Shown here: positions 30,455 through 46,317 of the stretch, in pieces
Layout: every line of letters starts with the position of its first letter
How positions within the stretch are numbered: position 1 is the first letter of the stretch
Source of the DNA: Halichondria panicea
Taxonomy: Eukaryota; Porifera; Demospongiae; Suberitida; Halichondriidae
DNA: 64,000 nt
NCBI RefSeq assembly: GCF_963675165.1
Contig: NC_087382.1
Location: forward strand, 1,116,001-1,180,000
Reading direction: 5' to 3'
Notes under the pieces: generated by a model
Told to the model about the DNA's origin: nothing
Seen by the model: only the letters and a program-made list of their open reading frames with translations
Databases searched by the model: none
Made by a program: the position numbers and the translations under genes

Positions 30455-31430
30455 TAGCGCATAGGTGCCAACTGTCCCAAATTGGCCGGGACTGTCCCAG
30501 ATTTAGCACCCCTGTCCCTTGTTTCTTGTCGCTTCCTCTCTCTCTCTCCATCTCATCTTGCAGTCCGCATGCAGTCGAGCAGCTTCCTCCTCTCGTCATT
30601 TACGCTCTTTCTCCTAGGGTGGGTGGGGTGGTGGGTGGGGGGTATATGTAACCATTGTTCCGAAAGGAAACTGCTGTTCACCTCAGATATCCCGGATTTT
30701 CAAGGTTGCTGCTCCTGAGCTGGGTTATACTAAGCTTCGATAAAGCTTAATAAGCCTGGAAAAGCTTAGAACCACTGTGGCTACTATCCAAGAAAATGGA
30801 CATACACGATGCTACCAGAGTTGGTGTACCAGACCCTTCATCACACTATAATTATCATTGTATCTTGAGCTAGAATCTTAAATATAAACAGCTAGCTTTA
30901 CACAAGAAATTAACTTACAAATAGCTAAAGTCTACTTGTTGAAGTTGACCTTCATGATGTTGTTATAATACTTCACACAAAATTATACCATTGGATTCCT
31001 TATAATCATCGTAACATAACATTATTATTAATAGAATGGGAGAGAAAAGCTCCAGCTTCTTCTTTTGGCTTTATTCGAGACTAGTATAGGGATTTTGGTC
31101 TGACAGAGGATGTGTATGGCTATATATGGATAACGTGATTTGGAGGGAGTCAAGCTGCCGTACAAATGGCTGGCAGTGGAGAGTCTAAACGATGCTATGA
31201 TACGACCGACGTGGTACATTGCTATATGATGTTGAATAATTAATTTGTATATTGAATTTTATTACTGTTCAATAATAATTATTGTTATTAACCCTTTCCT
31301 TGCTGAAGCCGTCTTTTTCCGGCCGCACTACTCAAAAATTGCTGTCCACGCTGTGTTGGAGCTATGCACACGCTGTAGGTACCAGCACATGCGCATGTAG
31401 GACTAGCCTTGTTCCCAGGTACGAGGCTAA
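30455..31430. other. Repeat-like, no gene recognised
   Basis: Begins with ataggtgccaactgtcccaa, which looks like a DNA-transposon end. The rest is AT-rich without exons. Confidence 0.35.
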
Positions 31431-31454
31431 TGTAGGACTAGGCTCGATTCAAGG

Positions 31455-32420
31455 CCTCAATTCAAGGCCGATGAAAATACGGCCTGGTACCTATTGCAAG
31501 GGTGATAGTGCGTATGCGTTAGTTTATTCACCAGAATCTGGGGAATCCCCTTTTTCTTCTATTTTCTACTATGTACATCAGCTTAGCTCTCTGTTGCGTT
31601 GTTCCAGAAGGCTTTCACACTAGTCTGAAGCCAGAAAAGAGGCTCTCATCTACATCTATATATGACGGCTGTATGGTCAGGATGTTGACGTCTTAGCTTG
31701 GATGTGTACAGTCTATGGGAAGTGTATGGCAGGGGCGGATCCAGGAAAAATGAAAGGGGGGGGGCTAGTATATAGAAGTACGAGGGTGGGTACGGGAGGG
31801 GGAGAAATTTTTTTGCTTTTTACAATTTGCTCACAATTTGACCTTTGAACTTTTATATTAATGAGTGAATACTGAATACGAGCTAGCTAGCCTATAGATC
31901 CTTAATTTATACTCTTAGTAGCTAGACCTGGCTGTTGTCTAGCATCTCTTAAGTCAGTGCATGAGTGTACATGCAGATGCATAAGTAACAAGGTTGGCGG
32001 CAAAATTGTTGTAACCTCAGACTAGCAATACATAGATCGTTTTTTTAAAAGGGAGGGCTTCAGCCCCTCAAAACCACCCCCTGGATCCGCCCCTGATTAT
32101 GGTGCCTCTTAACTGCTACTTGCGAAGACAACCTGGCTATATAGGACGATCGTAGCCGGAGATGAGAGCCTCTTCTGTCTTTAGACTAGTGTTCAAGCCT
32201 TCTACACCAACGCAATAGATTGCATAAGCCACAGCTTCACAGAACTCAGTCATGGAAATAAAGTATTACGGAACATATTCTTAGTAAACGAACTAATTTA
32301 CGGTATAATTTACTAAGGTTTTACGTTCGTAGTACGATTACCCATAATATTATTCTGAAGCGCATGCGCACTATCACCCTTGCAATAGGTACCAGGCCGT
32401 ATTTTAATCGGCCTTGAATC
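31455..32420. repeat. Inverted-repeat element of the ggccgattaaaatacggcc family
   Basis: About 80-bp inverted ends (aattcaaggccgatgaaaat..., ...cgcatgcgcactatcaccct...gaatcgaggcc). Inside it lies a second inverted pair (31577-31650 / 32158-32240) of the foldback family at 1745-1930, and inside that a third element at 31730-32096. No TSD found. Confidence 0.6.
31730..32096. mobile_element. 367-bp MITE with caggggcggatccag TIRs
   Basis: Both ends read caggggcggatccagg inwards. This resembles the ends of System II elements, but the flanks (tatgg versus attatgg) are not an exact TSD. Confidence 0.6.
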
Positions 32421-33102
32421 GAGGCCAGAGGAGGTTGGACACGCGTCATAATGTTTTACGGAGAAAATGTGTGTGCATGGAGAGATATACGGAAACTTGC
32501 AGAGAACATTCAGCCAAGTCAAAAGCCTGCTAGTAGTAAATGATGCTAAAAATACCCAGTGAAACTAGAAACTGAGTAGCATAGTCATACTAGAAGCAAT
32601 GCGGAGCCAGAAACATATAGATTAATCACAAACATCGAGTCAGTGTTGCTGCACTTGCCTTTGTTTTTTTACTCCTGTCTTGGTGTAGCAGGTATAGCAT
32701 CATATTGTTAAACTACTACGACTCATTAACTAACAGGAGATATAATACAAGAGCGATAGACAAGCAAGAATGGAAGAGTTAAGTAAAATGCTGACTCAGC
32801 AGGATCGAAAGGTTAAGTGTATTTATTGATGACTACGGATGACGCGTGTCTAGCCTCCTCTGAATCGAGGCTAATGTAGGACCAGAAAGCCAGAAATCAG
32901 AAAAGGTGGAAGTGAAGGGAAAATGAGTGGACGTAGCAGGGCAATGCATTCCAAAATTAACCCTTGCAGATGTAATAGCTAGCTGGAGCTTAGCCTCGAT
33001 TCCAGCCGTGAAGAGAAAGGCACGGCCTGGTATACCTTGCGCGAAATAATTGACAGCAATTTCATCATACAAAATTGAAATTGTAAAAAAACTGACCGAT
33101 CA

Positions 33103-37075: not shown

Positions 37076-37829
37076 TTAATTGTTTGCATTTTCAAGCAAT
37101 CCTGCATTGTACGACTTCTCTGAGCTGAATTCAGATGCAGTCTCATCGACTTTAATGGCTTCATATTGCATGGTGCTATAATTGTGTTTGCTGAATCTAG
37201 AGTGACTTGGCTTGAGCTGAACACCACCATGCACTCACCGGATTCTTGCTCTGCAAAAAAATTGAAATTTCACAGTCTGGAATGTACTATAATTATATAT
37301 AGTTATAAACAGTCTAATTTCAACTATATATACAATCAATGGAAATGAGCATATAATTTTACACTCCCACCTGTCTAGACATACCGGATTGTTTTTCCTG
37401 AGGCAGAAGTTGATACAATGCTATCCATTCTCTGCATTGCTTTAGGAAGTTTGTAACCTAAAAATTAGTAGACATAAAAATATGCTAAAAAATGAAACGT
37501 GCACCCTTTCACTCCTGAGTACATGGAAGATGAAATCGAACAGGCCTTGCAGTGAGTTAAAGATAGAGAACAACCTAGCCTCAATCCCAGGCCGAGGCTA
37601 GAGAACAACCATGCAAACACAATAGTGCTGTTGTTGATTGAGAGTAGACTAAACACCCAAGATAGAAAAAAAAAACAATGCAAACACAACAGTACTGTTA
37701 TTGATTGAGAGTAGACAAACTCACAAGAATAACTGTAAAGATTCCTTTTTTCCACTTCGTTGCATGCATGGTTAACTTTCTCTGTTTATAGACACTGCGC
37801 AAAGCAGCCAAGAGGAAGAATACATTCAC
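37076..37829 (-). pseudogene. 3' part of an adhesion-class GPCR, interrupted in TM6-TM7
   Basis: Reading down from the acceptor at 37829: NVFFLLAALRSVYKQRK (end of TM5 and loop 3), KWKKGIFTVILVSLS (TM6 start), then LSWVFSLLSINNS and FAWLF. After an interruption comes SIFNSLQGLFDFIFHVLRSE, the typical class-B2 TM7 signature (NSLQG, F-x-F-H). An exon at 37457-37385 (VTNFLKQCREWIALYQLLPQ) fits helix 8, and a further exon encodes a cytoplasmic tail. Lesion 1: a tandem duplication of about 60 bp within TM6. Lesion 2: a 25-bp palindromic insertion plus a 10-bp TSD in TM7, shifting the frame. Exons for the extracellular region and TM1-4 were not found. Adhesion GPCRs are surface receptors; this copy looks non-functional. 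Confidence 0.7.
37576..37600. mobile_element. 25-bp palindromic micro-insertion, TAG...CTA, 10-bp TSD
   Basis: Starts tagcctcaat, ends gccgaggcta. The perfect direct repeat gagaacaacc lies at 37566-37575 and 37601-37610. Removing insert plus one repeat restores the GPCR TM7 frame, so the empty-site sequence is predicted by the protein. Confidence 0.85.
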
Positions 37830-37947: not shown

Positions 37948-38005
37948 TAGCCTCAAGTCCACGCCGATTAAAATACGTATTTTAATCGGCGTGGATTCGA
38001 GGCTA
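37948..38005. mobile_element. 58-bp palindromic insertion, TAG...CTA, 9-bp TSD
   Basis: Near-perfect palindrome beginning tagcctcaag and ending ttcgaggcta, with core ccgattaaaatacgtatttt. The 9-bp repeat agatctcac flanks it exactly (37939-37947, 38006-38014). Confidence 0.9.
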
Positions 38006-39898: not shown

Positions 39899-40106
39899 CT
39901 GACAGTTGTCTATTTGAGGAGCCAAAGCACAAACGCATGCAAGATATAAAACTCATGGTGCAAGGCAGCTAGCTCAAGTAATTAGCCTCTGATTACTCTC
40001 CGCAAAAACATACGACGTTCCCTTGTGGGTTGTTTCTCCATGTAACCAATCCTAGATTACATCATCTATATACCTTTCTAATGACGTCATAGTAGCTGGT
40101 ACGTAA

Positions 40107-41001
40107 TTATAGTAGTAGGTAACTGGCAGTAGCACTGGTAGCGCTGGTAGCAGCAGTAGCACGCACTGGTAGCAGTAGTAGCATTGGTAGCAGTAGTAGC
40201 ACTGGTAGCGCTGGTAGCAGCAGTAGCACTAGTAGCACTGGTAGCAGCAGTAGCACTGGTAGCACTGGTAGCAGTAGATCTAGTAGCGCTGGTAGCAGCA
40301 GTAGCACTAGTAGCACTGGTAGTAGCAGTAGCACTGGTAGCACTGGTAGCAGCAGTAGCACTGGTAGCAGTAGTAGCATTGGTAGCAGCAGTAGCACTGG
40401 TATAGCAGCAGTAGCACTAGTAGCACTGGTAGCAGCAGTAGCACTGGTAGCACTGGTAGCAGCAGTAGCACTGGTAGCAGTAGTAGCACTGGTAGCGCTG
40501 GTACTGTAGCACTGGTAGCAGCAGTAGCACTAGTAGCACTGGTAGCAGCAGTAGCACTGGTAGCAGCAGTAGCACTGGTAGAAGTAGTAGCATCGGTAGC
40601 AGTAGTAGCACTGGTAGCAGCAGTAGCACTGGTAGCAGCAGTAGCACTGGTAGCAGTAGTAGCATTGGTAGCAGTAGTAGTACTGGTAGCGCTGGTAGCA
40701 GCAGTAGCACTGGTAGCACTGGTAGCAGCAGTAGCACTGGTAGCGCTGGTAGCAGCAGTAGCACTGGTAGCACTGGTAGCAGCAGTAGCATTGGTAGCAG
40801 TAGTAGCACTGGTAGCGCTGGTAGCAGCAGCACTGGTAGCAGCAGTAGTAGCAGTAGCACTGGTAGCACTGGTAGCAGCAGTAGCACTGGTAGCACTGGT
40901 AGCACTGGTAGCACTGGTAGCAGTAGATCTAGTAGCGCTGGTAGCACTGGTAGCATTGGTAGCAGCAGTAGCACTGGTAGCACTGGTAGCGCTGGTAGCA
41001 G
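40107..41001. repeat. Minisatellite of GTAGCA/GCAGTA/CTGGTA triplet blocks
   Basis: About 890 bp of imperfect units built from ctggtagcagcagtagca, in several higher-order lengths, running into the N gap. Long Leu/Val/Ala/Thr/Ser frames on both strands are compositional artefacts. Confidence 0.95.
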
Positions 41002-41201
41002 NNNNNNNNNNNNNNNNNNNNNNNNNNNNNNNNNNNNNNNNNNNNNNNNNNNNNNNNNNNNNNNNNNNNNNNNNNNNNNNNNNNNNNNNNNNNNNNNNNN
41101 NNNNNNNNNNNNNNNNNNNNNNNNNNNNNNNNNNNNNNNNNNNNNNNNNNNNNNNNNNNNNNNNNNNNNNNNNNNNNNNNNNNNNNNNNNNNNNNNNNNN
41201 N
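41002..41201. other. Assembly gap (200 N)
   Basis: Exactly 200 N between two different minisatellites. Round size suggests a placeholder, so the true distance is unknown. Confidence 0.95.
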
Positions 41202-41890
41202 TCTGCGTGTGCAGTGATCATGTCTGTACATGCAGTGATCATGTCTGCACATGCAACCATTAGTCTGTGCACATGCAGTGATCATGTCTCCTTGTCAAAG
41301 GTTTCTTTCAAAGATTTCACAATGACAGAGGGCATGTGATTTAAGCTGTTAGCCCTAAGACTTCGTCTGGAACTCTTATAGTCAAGAAGGAAGCTTATCT
41401 CCGTTGAAGGATGATCACTGCACACGCAGAGACTAATGGTTGCATGTGCAGACATGATCACTGCATGTGCAGAGATTAATGGTTGCATGTGCAGACATGA
41501 TCACTGCATGTGCACAGACTAATGGCTGCATGTGCAGACATGATCACTGCATGTGCAGAGATTAATGGTTGCATGTGCAGACATGATCACTGCATGTGCA
41601 TGCACAGACTAATGGTTGCATGTGCAGACATGATCGCAGAGATTAATGGTTGCGAGTGCAGACATGATCACTGCATGTGCACAGACTAATGGTTGCATGT
41701 GCAGACATGATCACTGCACACACAGAGATTAATGGTTGCATGTGCAGACATGATCACTGCATGTGCAGAGACTAATGGTTGCATGTGCAGACATGATCAC
41801 TGCATGTGCACAGACTAATGGTTGCATGTGCAGACATGATCACTGCACACGCAGAGATTAATGGTTGCATGTGCAGACATGATCACTGCA
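41202..41890. repeat. Minisatellite (gcagacatgatcactgcatg units) in two orientations
   Basis: Units of about 40-45 bp. 41202-41287 carries the complement strand; after a unique spacer (41288-41415) about 11 units run in the opposite orientation to 41890. Sub-variants (gagattaatggttgcatgtg / cagactaatggttgcatgtg) alternate. Confidence 0.9.
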
Positions 41891-42107: not shown

Positions 42108-43122
42108 ATGTGGAGATCAGCAGAACCAACAAGAAGGGCATCTTATTCACAGGATCTCAGATGGAGAGTGGTATGGCAGAGGCTAGCCTCGATTCCAGGC
42201 CGATTAAAATCGGCCTTGAATCGAGGCTAGACAGAGGCTAGCTTTGGATTTAAGATATCTACGTATAGCAAGGAACCTTAACATTAGTGTTGGAACTGCT
42301 CACAACATTTTCAAATTGTTTGAAGCAACTGGTGTGTTGAGCCCAAGAAACTAATTCCTCGTGAACACAAACTTGATGGCCATCATGAATTATACATTAT
42401 TGGATTGATACTTCACTTTCCTACTCTTCAACTGTCAGAATTAGTGGATAAAGTTGCTGAAATAAGCGGCACGCTTGTATCTGTATCTACTATGTGCAGG
42501 CTACTTGCCAAATACGGCTTTACTCGGAAAAAAGTTCAGCAGATCGCTCTACAAAGACGTCTTGATCTGAGAGCCAGTTATATGGCCAGTATTTTCACCT
42601 ACCATAAAGAAATGTTTGTTTTCCTTGATGAAACTGGGACTGAACTAAAGGATATGCTCAGACAATATGGATATGCAATCTGTGGTGAGAGAGCATGCAA
42701 TTAATAACCGTTTACAGATTCAAGAACGTAATATGACGTCAATTGCTGCTATTTCAACAGAAGGTTTGGTGACTGTAGAAACAACTAATAACACTGTTGA
42801 CGGTGAAGCTTTTCTGGACTTTCTTCGTGGCACTTTGATACCAGAGTTGCATCCTTTTGATGAGTACACCCCTATGTCTATCATAGTAATGGACAATTGC
42901 TCAATTCATCGTGTGCAGGAGGTTCAAGAGCTCCTAAATTCTGCTGGTGTTCTGACATTCTACCTATCACCGTACAGCCCTGATTTCGAACTAACTTTTA
43001 GTTACATCAAACATTATTTAAAACAACATGAAGACATAATATATACAATATCACCATGCACATACACTGATAAAGGCAGCGTTCAACAGTATCACTCAAG
43101 ATATGTCCAAAAATTGGATTGA
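42108..43122 (+). pseudogene. IS630/Tc1-mariner-type transposase, inactivated
   Basis: Start ATG at 42108. The N-terminal helix-turn-helix region reads SYSQDLRWRVVW ... LRIARNLNISVGTAHNIFKL. The catalytic core has FVFLDETG (first Asp), IVMDNCSIHR (second Asp) and YSPDFELTFSYIKHYLK (third acidic residue, with a short deletion next to it). Lesions: a 46-bp insertion at 42184-42229, a frameshift at about 42345 (after GVLSP), and another at about 42700 (after GERAC). It catalysed cut-and-paste DNA transposition when intact. Terminal repeats were not identified. Confidence 0.85.
42184..42229. mobile_element. 46-bp palindromic insertion, TAG...CTA, 9-bp TSD (one mismatch)
   Basis: Begins tagcctcgattccaggccga and ends with the near complement. 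Flanks are ggcagaggc (42175-42183) and gacagaggc (42230-42238). Without it the transposase reads continuously from VVWQR to LALDL. Confidence 0.85.
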
Positions 43123-45245: not shown

Positions 45246-46317
45246 TAGCCTCGATCCCAGGCCGAGTTTTCGCTTTTATAACGGTTAGGCGAACAACCAG
45301 GCCTGGTACTAGTTGTCTGCGCATGCGTCAAATTTTCATTGTATTTGTGGTCGGCAAAAATATTTAATGAATCAATAATCGAAATTTGTACACAGAAAAT
45401 GCAGAGTGAGTACACACAAAATATGCACATAGGGAGCTGCTTCACAAGGGCCTGGGGAGTTGCCAGTTGTGTTGCAGCACGATTACAGTGACCCAGGGCA
45501 ACTTCAAGATGATTGAATGTCTTCAAATTACGTTTCAACGATTTAGCAGGCTGCTGGACTTCTCTGATTCTAGGCCCCAACTCGTATATAACTCAGTTAA
45601 ACTTTGCTTGAGAAAACGTAGATTCTCTTGATGCCTCTGAGCTACCCAGCAACGCTCGAACAAGCAGGTCATACTCCAGTCCTGTAAGTATAGGACAATA
45701 TTAAAGAAACCAAACACGGTTAAACCCTTACCTTAAACTGTCCAGTCTCGTCCATTAGTATAGCCAAGAGGAGCACTGTTGGGATAGCTGGATATTAGCC
45801 ATTGCTCCTGTACAGAGAAGTAGACATTCTAAATACGTGTAGATCTATATTAAATTTCTCGTATTTTAAACAGGTTATAGTGTCATTGTCGACGAGCTGA
45901 TGATGGCAGCACCAAGTTCTCTAGCTCACACTCTTCACTTGATCCACCATATTAATGATGAAACTATAGTCTATCTAGATCTTGCCAAACATGATGATAT
46001 ATAGCACAGGGCCCACACAAAAATGTCTGACCTTAATTAACAAGCTTGACAAAGCTTTATACCTCTTCCCTTGTTGTTCAGTCTTCAGAATAATGTTTTC
46101 TAGAGAAGCTTCAGCTAAGAGCCATTCCAATAATGATAAAACGGGAACTGACTTCTAGTACACGATAGTACACGAATATAAATGTCACAAAAGTGAACGA
46201 GAATATCCATTAGTCAGAATCTGACTAACGATTGACGCATGCGCAGACAACTAGTACCAGGCCTAGTTGTTCGCCTAACCGTTATAAAAGCGAAAACTCG
46301 GCCTGGAATCGAGGCTA
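45246..46317. mobile_element. 1072-bp TAG...CTA element with 86-bp TIRs and 9-bp TSD, holding exon-like fragments
   Basis: TIRs 45246-45331 and 46232-46317 differ at about two positions. They begin tagcctcgatcccaggccga, the motif of the 25-58-bp palindromes. TSD catgtatac at 45237-45245 and 46318-46326. Interior minus-strand fragments: EWLLAEASLENIILKTEQQG with a donor (about 46145-46080), EQWLISSYPNSAPLGYTNGR (about 45810-45745), and LEYDLLVRALLGSSEASRES... (about 45680-45440, one stop), each beside splice-like ends. A plus-strand fragment follows an acceptor at about 45874 (YSVIVDELMMAAPSSLAHTL ... DLAKHDD). This resembles plant Pack-MULEs. Gene identities are unknown. Confidence 0.75.

Follow-up and report, generated by a model that had tools for sequence, protein, structure and literature searches.

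A very short insert that interrupts a receptor gene copy of the sponge Halichondria panicea raises the question of whether so small an element moved as a unit or is the remnant of something larger. It lies within a 64,000-nucleotide stretch of genomic DNA, the whole of which is referred to as the window; the coordinates of all features are compiled in the table. A preliminary description had reported an insert of 25 bp, TAGCCTC...GAGGCTA, bounded by a perfect 10-bp target-site duplication (TSD) inside the exon encoding TM7, and this was confirmed by direct reading and by empty paralogues. The same description had called the insert palindromic. Its ends are indeed inverted, but pairing is limited to the outer 7 bp of each end and the 25-mer is not a full palindrome: as single-stranded DNA it folds, at -4.8 kcal/mol (z -1.9), into a stem of 7 bp closed by a loop of 11 nt. 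One end contributes 17–21 bp and the other 8–4 bp, the joint being ambiguous over CGAG. Removal of 35 bp rejoins one TM7 reading frame on the minus strand (WVFSLLSINNSTIVFAWLFSIFNSLQGLFDFIFHVLRSERV), as had been stated, and with the insert present no frame crosses both exon halves. As detailed below, the 25-mer is most probably (we estimate about 0.88) a derivative of a longer hairpin element that would have arisen by deletion in place.

The homologous exon of a paralogue (L003) matches PF00002 (7tm_2, secretin family) at 7.3e-12, and we take the host receptor to be of the adhesion type. The gene copy in the window is also broken at 37659, where the paralogous sequence gives way to a second copy of an exon piece. 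This second piece, which looks like the outcome of template switching or of gene conversion from another paralogue, starts with a run of A. Elsewhere in the window (~40100–41300) there is a long low-complexity stretch that includes unreadable bases and that, in several frames, is rich in Ala/Thr/Val or in Ser/Gly.

Table. Features of the insertion site, of related elements in the window and of the sister copy. Positions are those of the window unless a contig is named.
Feature	Position	Strand	Basis or remark
Left TSD copy, 10 bp, GAGAACAACC	37566..37575	.	Window sequence read directly
25-bp internally deleted TIR element (probable), TAGCCTCAATCCCAGGCCGAGGCTA	37576..37600	.	Sequence and paralogue comparison
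Right TSD copy, 10 bp, GAGAACAACC	37601..37610	.	Window sequence read directly
TM7 exon remnant of 7tm_2 GPCR pseudogene, split by the insert	37465..37658	-	Homology and frame reading
Second copy of a TM7 exon portion, lacking the insert	37659..37727	-	Stands where paralogues have the preceding (TM6) part
58-bp hairpin element, similar ends, TSD AGATCTCAC	37948..38005	.	Sister copy: same base, same length
70-bp element of the sister copy	G000:C6:1096950-1097019 (in L009/L002)		Same base and TSD as the 25-mer of the window
46-bp hairpin element, TSD 8/9	42184..42229	.	Window sequence
1,072-bp non-coding long member, 84-bp TIRs (82/84 matching), 9-bp TSD CATGTATAC	45246..46317	.	Sequence comparison
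26-bp remnant, related ends, TSD ATGTAGGAC	31404..31429	.	Window sequence
1,435-bp stretch, TAGGCTC/GAGGCTA ends	31439..32873	.	Adjoins the 26-bp remnant, the 9-bp TSD between them being shared

When the genome (131 Mb in 39 contigs) was searched with window positions 37500–37680, 30 rows were obtained. Apart from the window site and the second copy within it, these were 28 rows, counted as 27 paralogous places since two rows were pieces of one place. Alignment took in 20 of the 27. This comparison with GPCR paralogues, which the preliminary description had proposed, gave an empty site with one target copy in 19 of the 20 aligned; the target reads GAGAACAAC in 17 of these, GAAAACAAC in L022 and GTGAACAAC in L027. 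The empty sites rule out that the 25-mer is a spliced intron or ordinary exon sequence. No supporting point was found for the idea that it is a chance palindrome or a piece of a spliced intron, against which stand both the retention of a single target copy by these 19 paralogues and a control in which the flanks of different sites gave 0 perfect 9-bp matches in 4290 comparisons; its probability is negligible.

The 20th paralogue (C6:1096884-1097084) is located on the same contig, about 57 kb away, and carries an element of 70 bp at the same base and within the same TSD. This 70-mer forms a hairpin whose arms measure 34 and 36; 64 of its 70 positions are self-complementary (-34.9 kcal/mol, z -14). 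Taking 45 bp out of it yields the 25-mer with one mismatch; as CGAG is present at both breakpoints, five placements of the joint are equivalent. Window and sister copy are identical in 578 of 629 ungapped columns and have changes in common that are absent from the other 19 paralogues, e.g. GAGTACATGG for GAGCACATGG; the 58-bp hairpin element, too, sits at one and the same base in both. Because of these common flank changes, a single insertion preceding duplication of the locus is the simplest reading of the pair. Since the sister has the 70-mer at the same site and TSD, and since removal of 45 bp from the 70-mer gives the 25-mer, the short form would be a deletion derivative formed after insertion. 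The preliminary description had ranked the 25-mer, were it to have moved as a unit, with the smallest products of transposition and had considered, as an alternative, that a larger element was shortened by deletion once inserted. With the 70-mer at the same base and TSD in the closest paralogue, the former claim is unsupported at this site, and the comparison of the two forms favors the latter.

Judged from the common flank changes, the history of the site would have begun with one insertion of a hairpin element, followed by duplication of the locus and then by loss of 45 bp from the window copy. The 70-bp form is probably itself a centre-eroded relative of a palindromic MITE of ~106 bp, which in turn may be related via its arms to the 1.07-kb MITE with 84-bp TIRs. 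The site would be an instance of a known process in which a MITE loses internal sequence, observed here at a single place where a sister copy has kept the longer form. The 70/25-bp pair at a fixed site is a long/short record of the shrinkage of a hairpin transposon, and it cautions that very short TSD-flanked palindromes are not necessarily transposition products.

The loss could have occurred as microhomology-mediated deletion across the hairpin, either by replication slippage or by opening of the hairpin and joining at microhomologies. We computed 571 different single-deletion products of 14–50 bp for the 70-mer, 4 of which use the maximal microhomology of 4 bp, the 25-mer being among them. 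Microhomology length alone fails to predict the products, because a GGCC junction in the 1,072-bp element has microhomology equal to that of the CGAG joint and its 32-bp product was not among the 38 places listed, while the 14-bp product, also with 4-bp microhomology, occurs at 5 places in the genome and mostly without a TSD (an 8/9 TSD at one place, a 9-bp TSD at another provided that 20 bp are counted, no TSD at three). A second choice for the last step is repair of a transposase-made break, i.e. an excision remnant: after a cut at the element by the transposase, portions of the two ends would have persisted through break repair or abortive gap repair. Microhomology at the joints of internal deletions is commonly explained in this way in the available part of PMC5490172, and several copies of a related family have differing internal junctions. 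The MULE Muta1 is also described to leave occasionally up to 13 bp of TIR, a finding reported for donor sites without TSDs in the part of PMC5225508 at hand; at donor sites with TSDs, however, ~90% of Muta1 excisions are precise according to the same source. Moreover, no transposase was linked to the TAGCCTC-ended family in the loci examined, and the one-sided losses at palindrome centres (see below) point to hairpin processing, not to end cuts. An excision remnant is a conceivable but somewhat doubtful variant of the last step, and the present data do not distinguish slippage from excision repair.

To place the 25-mer among its relatives, we surveyed short inserts throughout the genome. TAGCCTC ends are found 28 times in the window, with 6 expected, and the pattern TAGCCTC(2–32)GAGGCTA occurs at 723 places in the genome (reversed-pattern control: 0). 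Fifty of the 723 places were listed, all on contig C1, and 47 of these were fetched. Together with other places from pattern searches, locus L143 and two window sites they made up 78 rows, which collapse to 66 distinct sites. At 33 of the 66 distinct sites, direct comparison of the flanks revealed a perfect TSD of 9 bp or more, mostly of 9 bp; the other 33 lack such a perfect TSD. A search for the 25-mer with up to two mismatches returned 27 rows, of which 12 were examined: all five exact matches, six of eight with one mismatch (window site included) and one of 14 with two. The last one, L143, had been fetched for another purpose and was not chosen as a 25-mer. All 15 rows left out have a changed base in a terminal 7-mer, as do L072, L073 and L143 among those examined. 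Perfect TSDs of 9–10 bp, all mutually different and within differing flanks, surround 11 of the 12 examined 25-mers. The search for further 20–30-bp inserts with 9–10-bp TSDs, suggested at the outset, was thus positive, a result that alone cannot separate mobility from recurrent deletion.

These numbers bear on the proposal that the 25-mer is mobile as a unit, with a transposase using its 7–8-bp ends and most 25-mers of the genome being transposition products. In line with it, perfect TSDs, all different, flank 11 of the 12 25-mers and, among the other short inserts, 22 of 54 (p = 0.0027 by Fisher test; the two groups were picked differently). However, perfect 9–10-bp TSDs are also present in 8 of 11 copies of 75–103 bp (scored by eye), and the repeated 28-, 41- and 46-mers have flanks in common, the insertions having been multiplied as part of larger repeats, which rules them out as mobile units. 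The 70-bp form in the sister copy argues in the same direction at the window site, the one 25-mer site of the 12 whose flanks were searched for sister copies and the only one for which a longer form is known. As a young family would explain TSD intactness in 25-mers and longer copies alike, intact TSDs may mark youth rather than mobility. We consider it improbable that the 25-mer moves as a unit. Equally unlikely is the joint proposition that the 25-bp end-to-end form transposes at some other sites and that the superfamily re-inserts into the 9-bp TSD next to a copy already present; if true, the 25-bp form would rank with the shortest substrates of transposition of which we are aware. In yeast, smaller elements excise and insert more readily, the smallest size being 430 bp in the part of PMC10288884 available. 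Of note, an insert even smaller than the 25-mer of the window, the 19-bp TAGCCTGGGATCGAGGCTA with the perfect 9-bp TSD CATTGGAAC, is present in L030 (1714-1732) and also in L043, with an empty site in L037.

The examined 25-mers carry either GATCCC (with variants) or GACCCC. Arms of the type GATCCC...CGAGTTT occur 1087 times in the genome and those of the type GACCCC...CGAGTTT once. The sequence GACCCCAGG is found at 173 places, and in 20 stretches fetched 19 of the 22 arms read continue as CCGATCCG or CCGATCTG. Because GACCCC arms belong mostly to this CCGATCCG/CCGATCTG type and GATCCC arms to the CGAGTTT type, the same joint would most simply have arisen in at least two families; a single base change within one 25-mer lineage is an admissible alternative. 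A diagnostic-base test for mobility, which set three GACCCC 25-mers against the one GACCCC...CGAGTTT arm, at first seemed to favor movement as a unit but was dropped since GACCCC arms are common in another family.

The source of the short forms is illustrated by the long member in the window. Of the six stop-to-stop ORFs in this member that reach 50 aa, none had a Pfam match over the cut-off, one showing a weak DUF6450 match of 15 bits vs a cut-off of 25. The genome contains 1087 occurrences of a 24-base segment of its arm. The family consists of short, non-coding elements with TIRs and a TSD in many copies, which is what characterizes MITEs. For the palindromic members, the centre pattern was found at 89 places (control: 0); the length of ~106 bp is deduced from arms plus centre, no full-centre copy having been read whole. 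Among 50 centres listed of the 89 (39 different), 14 are of full length, 32 shorter and 4 longer. Centre loss is one-sided, since 24 of these 32 shorter centres keep one arm nearly whole, i.e. at no fewer than 20 of 22 positions. Moreover, eleven copies read together with their flanks (L153-L163), ten of 90–103 bp and one of 75 bp, all differ from each other in their centres. These sequence comparisons suggest that the centre of the ~106-bp MITE eroded after insertion, and the 25-mer would represent a further erosion step beyond the 70-mer. The palindromic copies thus provide a natural record of centre erosion, and as the genome holds hundreds of short products, often still TSD-tagged, the decay of palindromic MITEs becomes measurable.

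Centre revision of palindromes is a known process. The losses observed here resemble it in being limited to the centre and mostly one-sided; what sets them apart is that a series of natural copies of a single MITE displays them. What PMC7999016 describes for palindromes, in the part available, is extrusion from the centre, breaks and deletions, and not centre revision as such. Internal deletion with microhomology is a described origin of MITEs (PMC5490172), and the aphid mariner MITEs characterized there in the accessible sections share with the sponge elements two intact ends, an internal deletion and microhomology at most joints. However, they measure 349–578 bp where sized, whereas the remnant here has 25 bp, and the longer form is visible here at the same site in the sister copy. 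The family also shares some traits with other element types. Foldback elements, an example of which is Tetris of Drosophila virilis, in general have long inverted arms, a feature that the present family shares. A literature search by kind of element, not by the TAGCCTC sequence, found no naming of these elements.

The length of its TSDs and its long TIRs make the family resemble Mutator-type (MULE) MITEs, which does not establish membership. MULEs are described, in the available parts of the sources, to have TSDs of 8–10 bp and TIRs typically exceeding 100 bp (PMC5225508) or TSDs of 9–11 bp (PMC3310237). The perfect TSDs counted above fall within this combined range of 8–11 bp, and the 84-bp TIRs are somewhat below the usual length. 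Like Mutator-type MITEs, the family is non-coding, of high copy number and internally deleted, with TSDs mostly of 9 bp (8–10 seen); unlike these, it reaches down to 19–25 bp and includes the ~106-bp palindrome. A further difference is that no MULE transposase with the ends of the family was present in the loci examined. The genome contains 31 matches to the MULE transposase (PF10551), and in the 20 of these 31 loci read with ~1.5 kb flanks none was linked between TAGCC ends. Four MULE loci were read over 7–8 kb; none of them is spanned by TAGCC ends and one is flanked by inverted repeats of another sequence.

Finally, some elements are arranged in tandem around one target. Window positions 31395–32882 read TSD-element-TSD-element-TSD, with ATGTAGGAC present three times. 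Likewise, L049 contains elements of 57 and 36 bp with GCAACTTCC three times, and the related MULE copies L044 and L046 have the 36-mer alone, without the 57-bp partner. In L030, L037 and L043, which are copies of one locus, elements of 41–43 and 216–242 bp are accompanied by TTCTAGAGT three times. Genome-wide, head-to-tail pairs with 2–20 bases between them occur at 232 places; among the 50 listed of these, the spacing is 9 in 19 cases, or in 14 of 41 different spacers, and any other spacing is found at most 4 times. The simplest reading is that the second element used the same 9-bp target beside the first, with unequal repair between TSDs as a rival. Tandem reuse of one 9-bp target would be a separate property of the transposase. 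In plants, MULEs with tandem TIRs are known and their origin is given as unclear in the part of PMC3310237 available. Locus L146 probably has the same tandem architecture as window positions 31395–32882.
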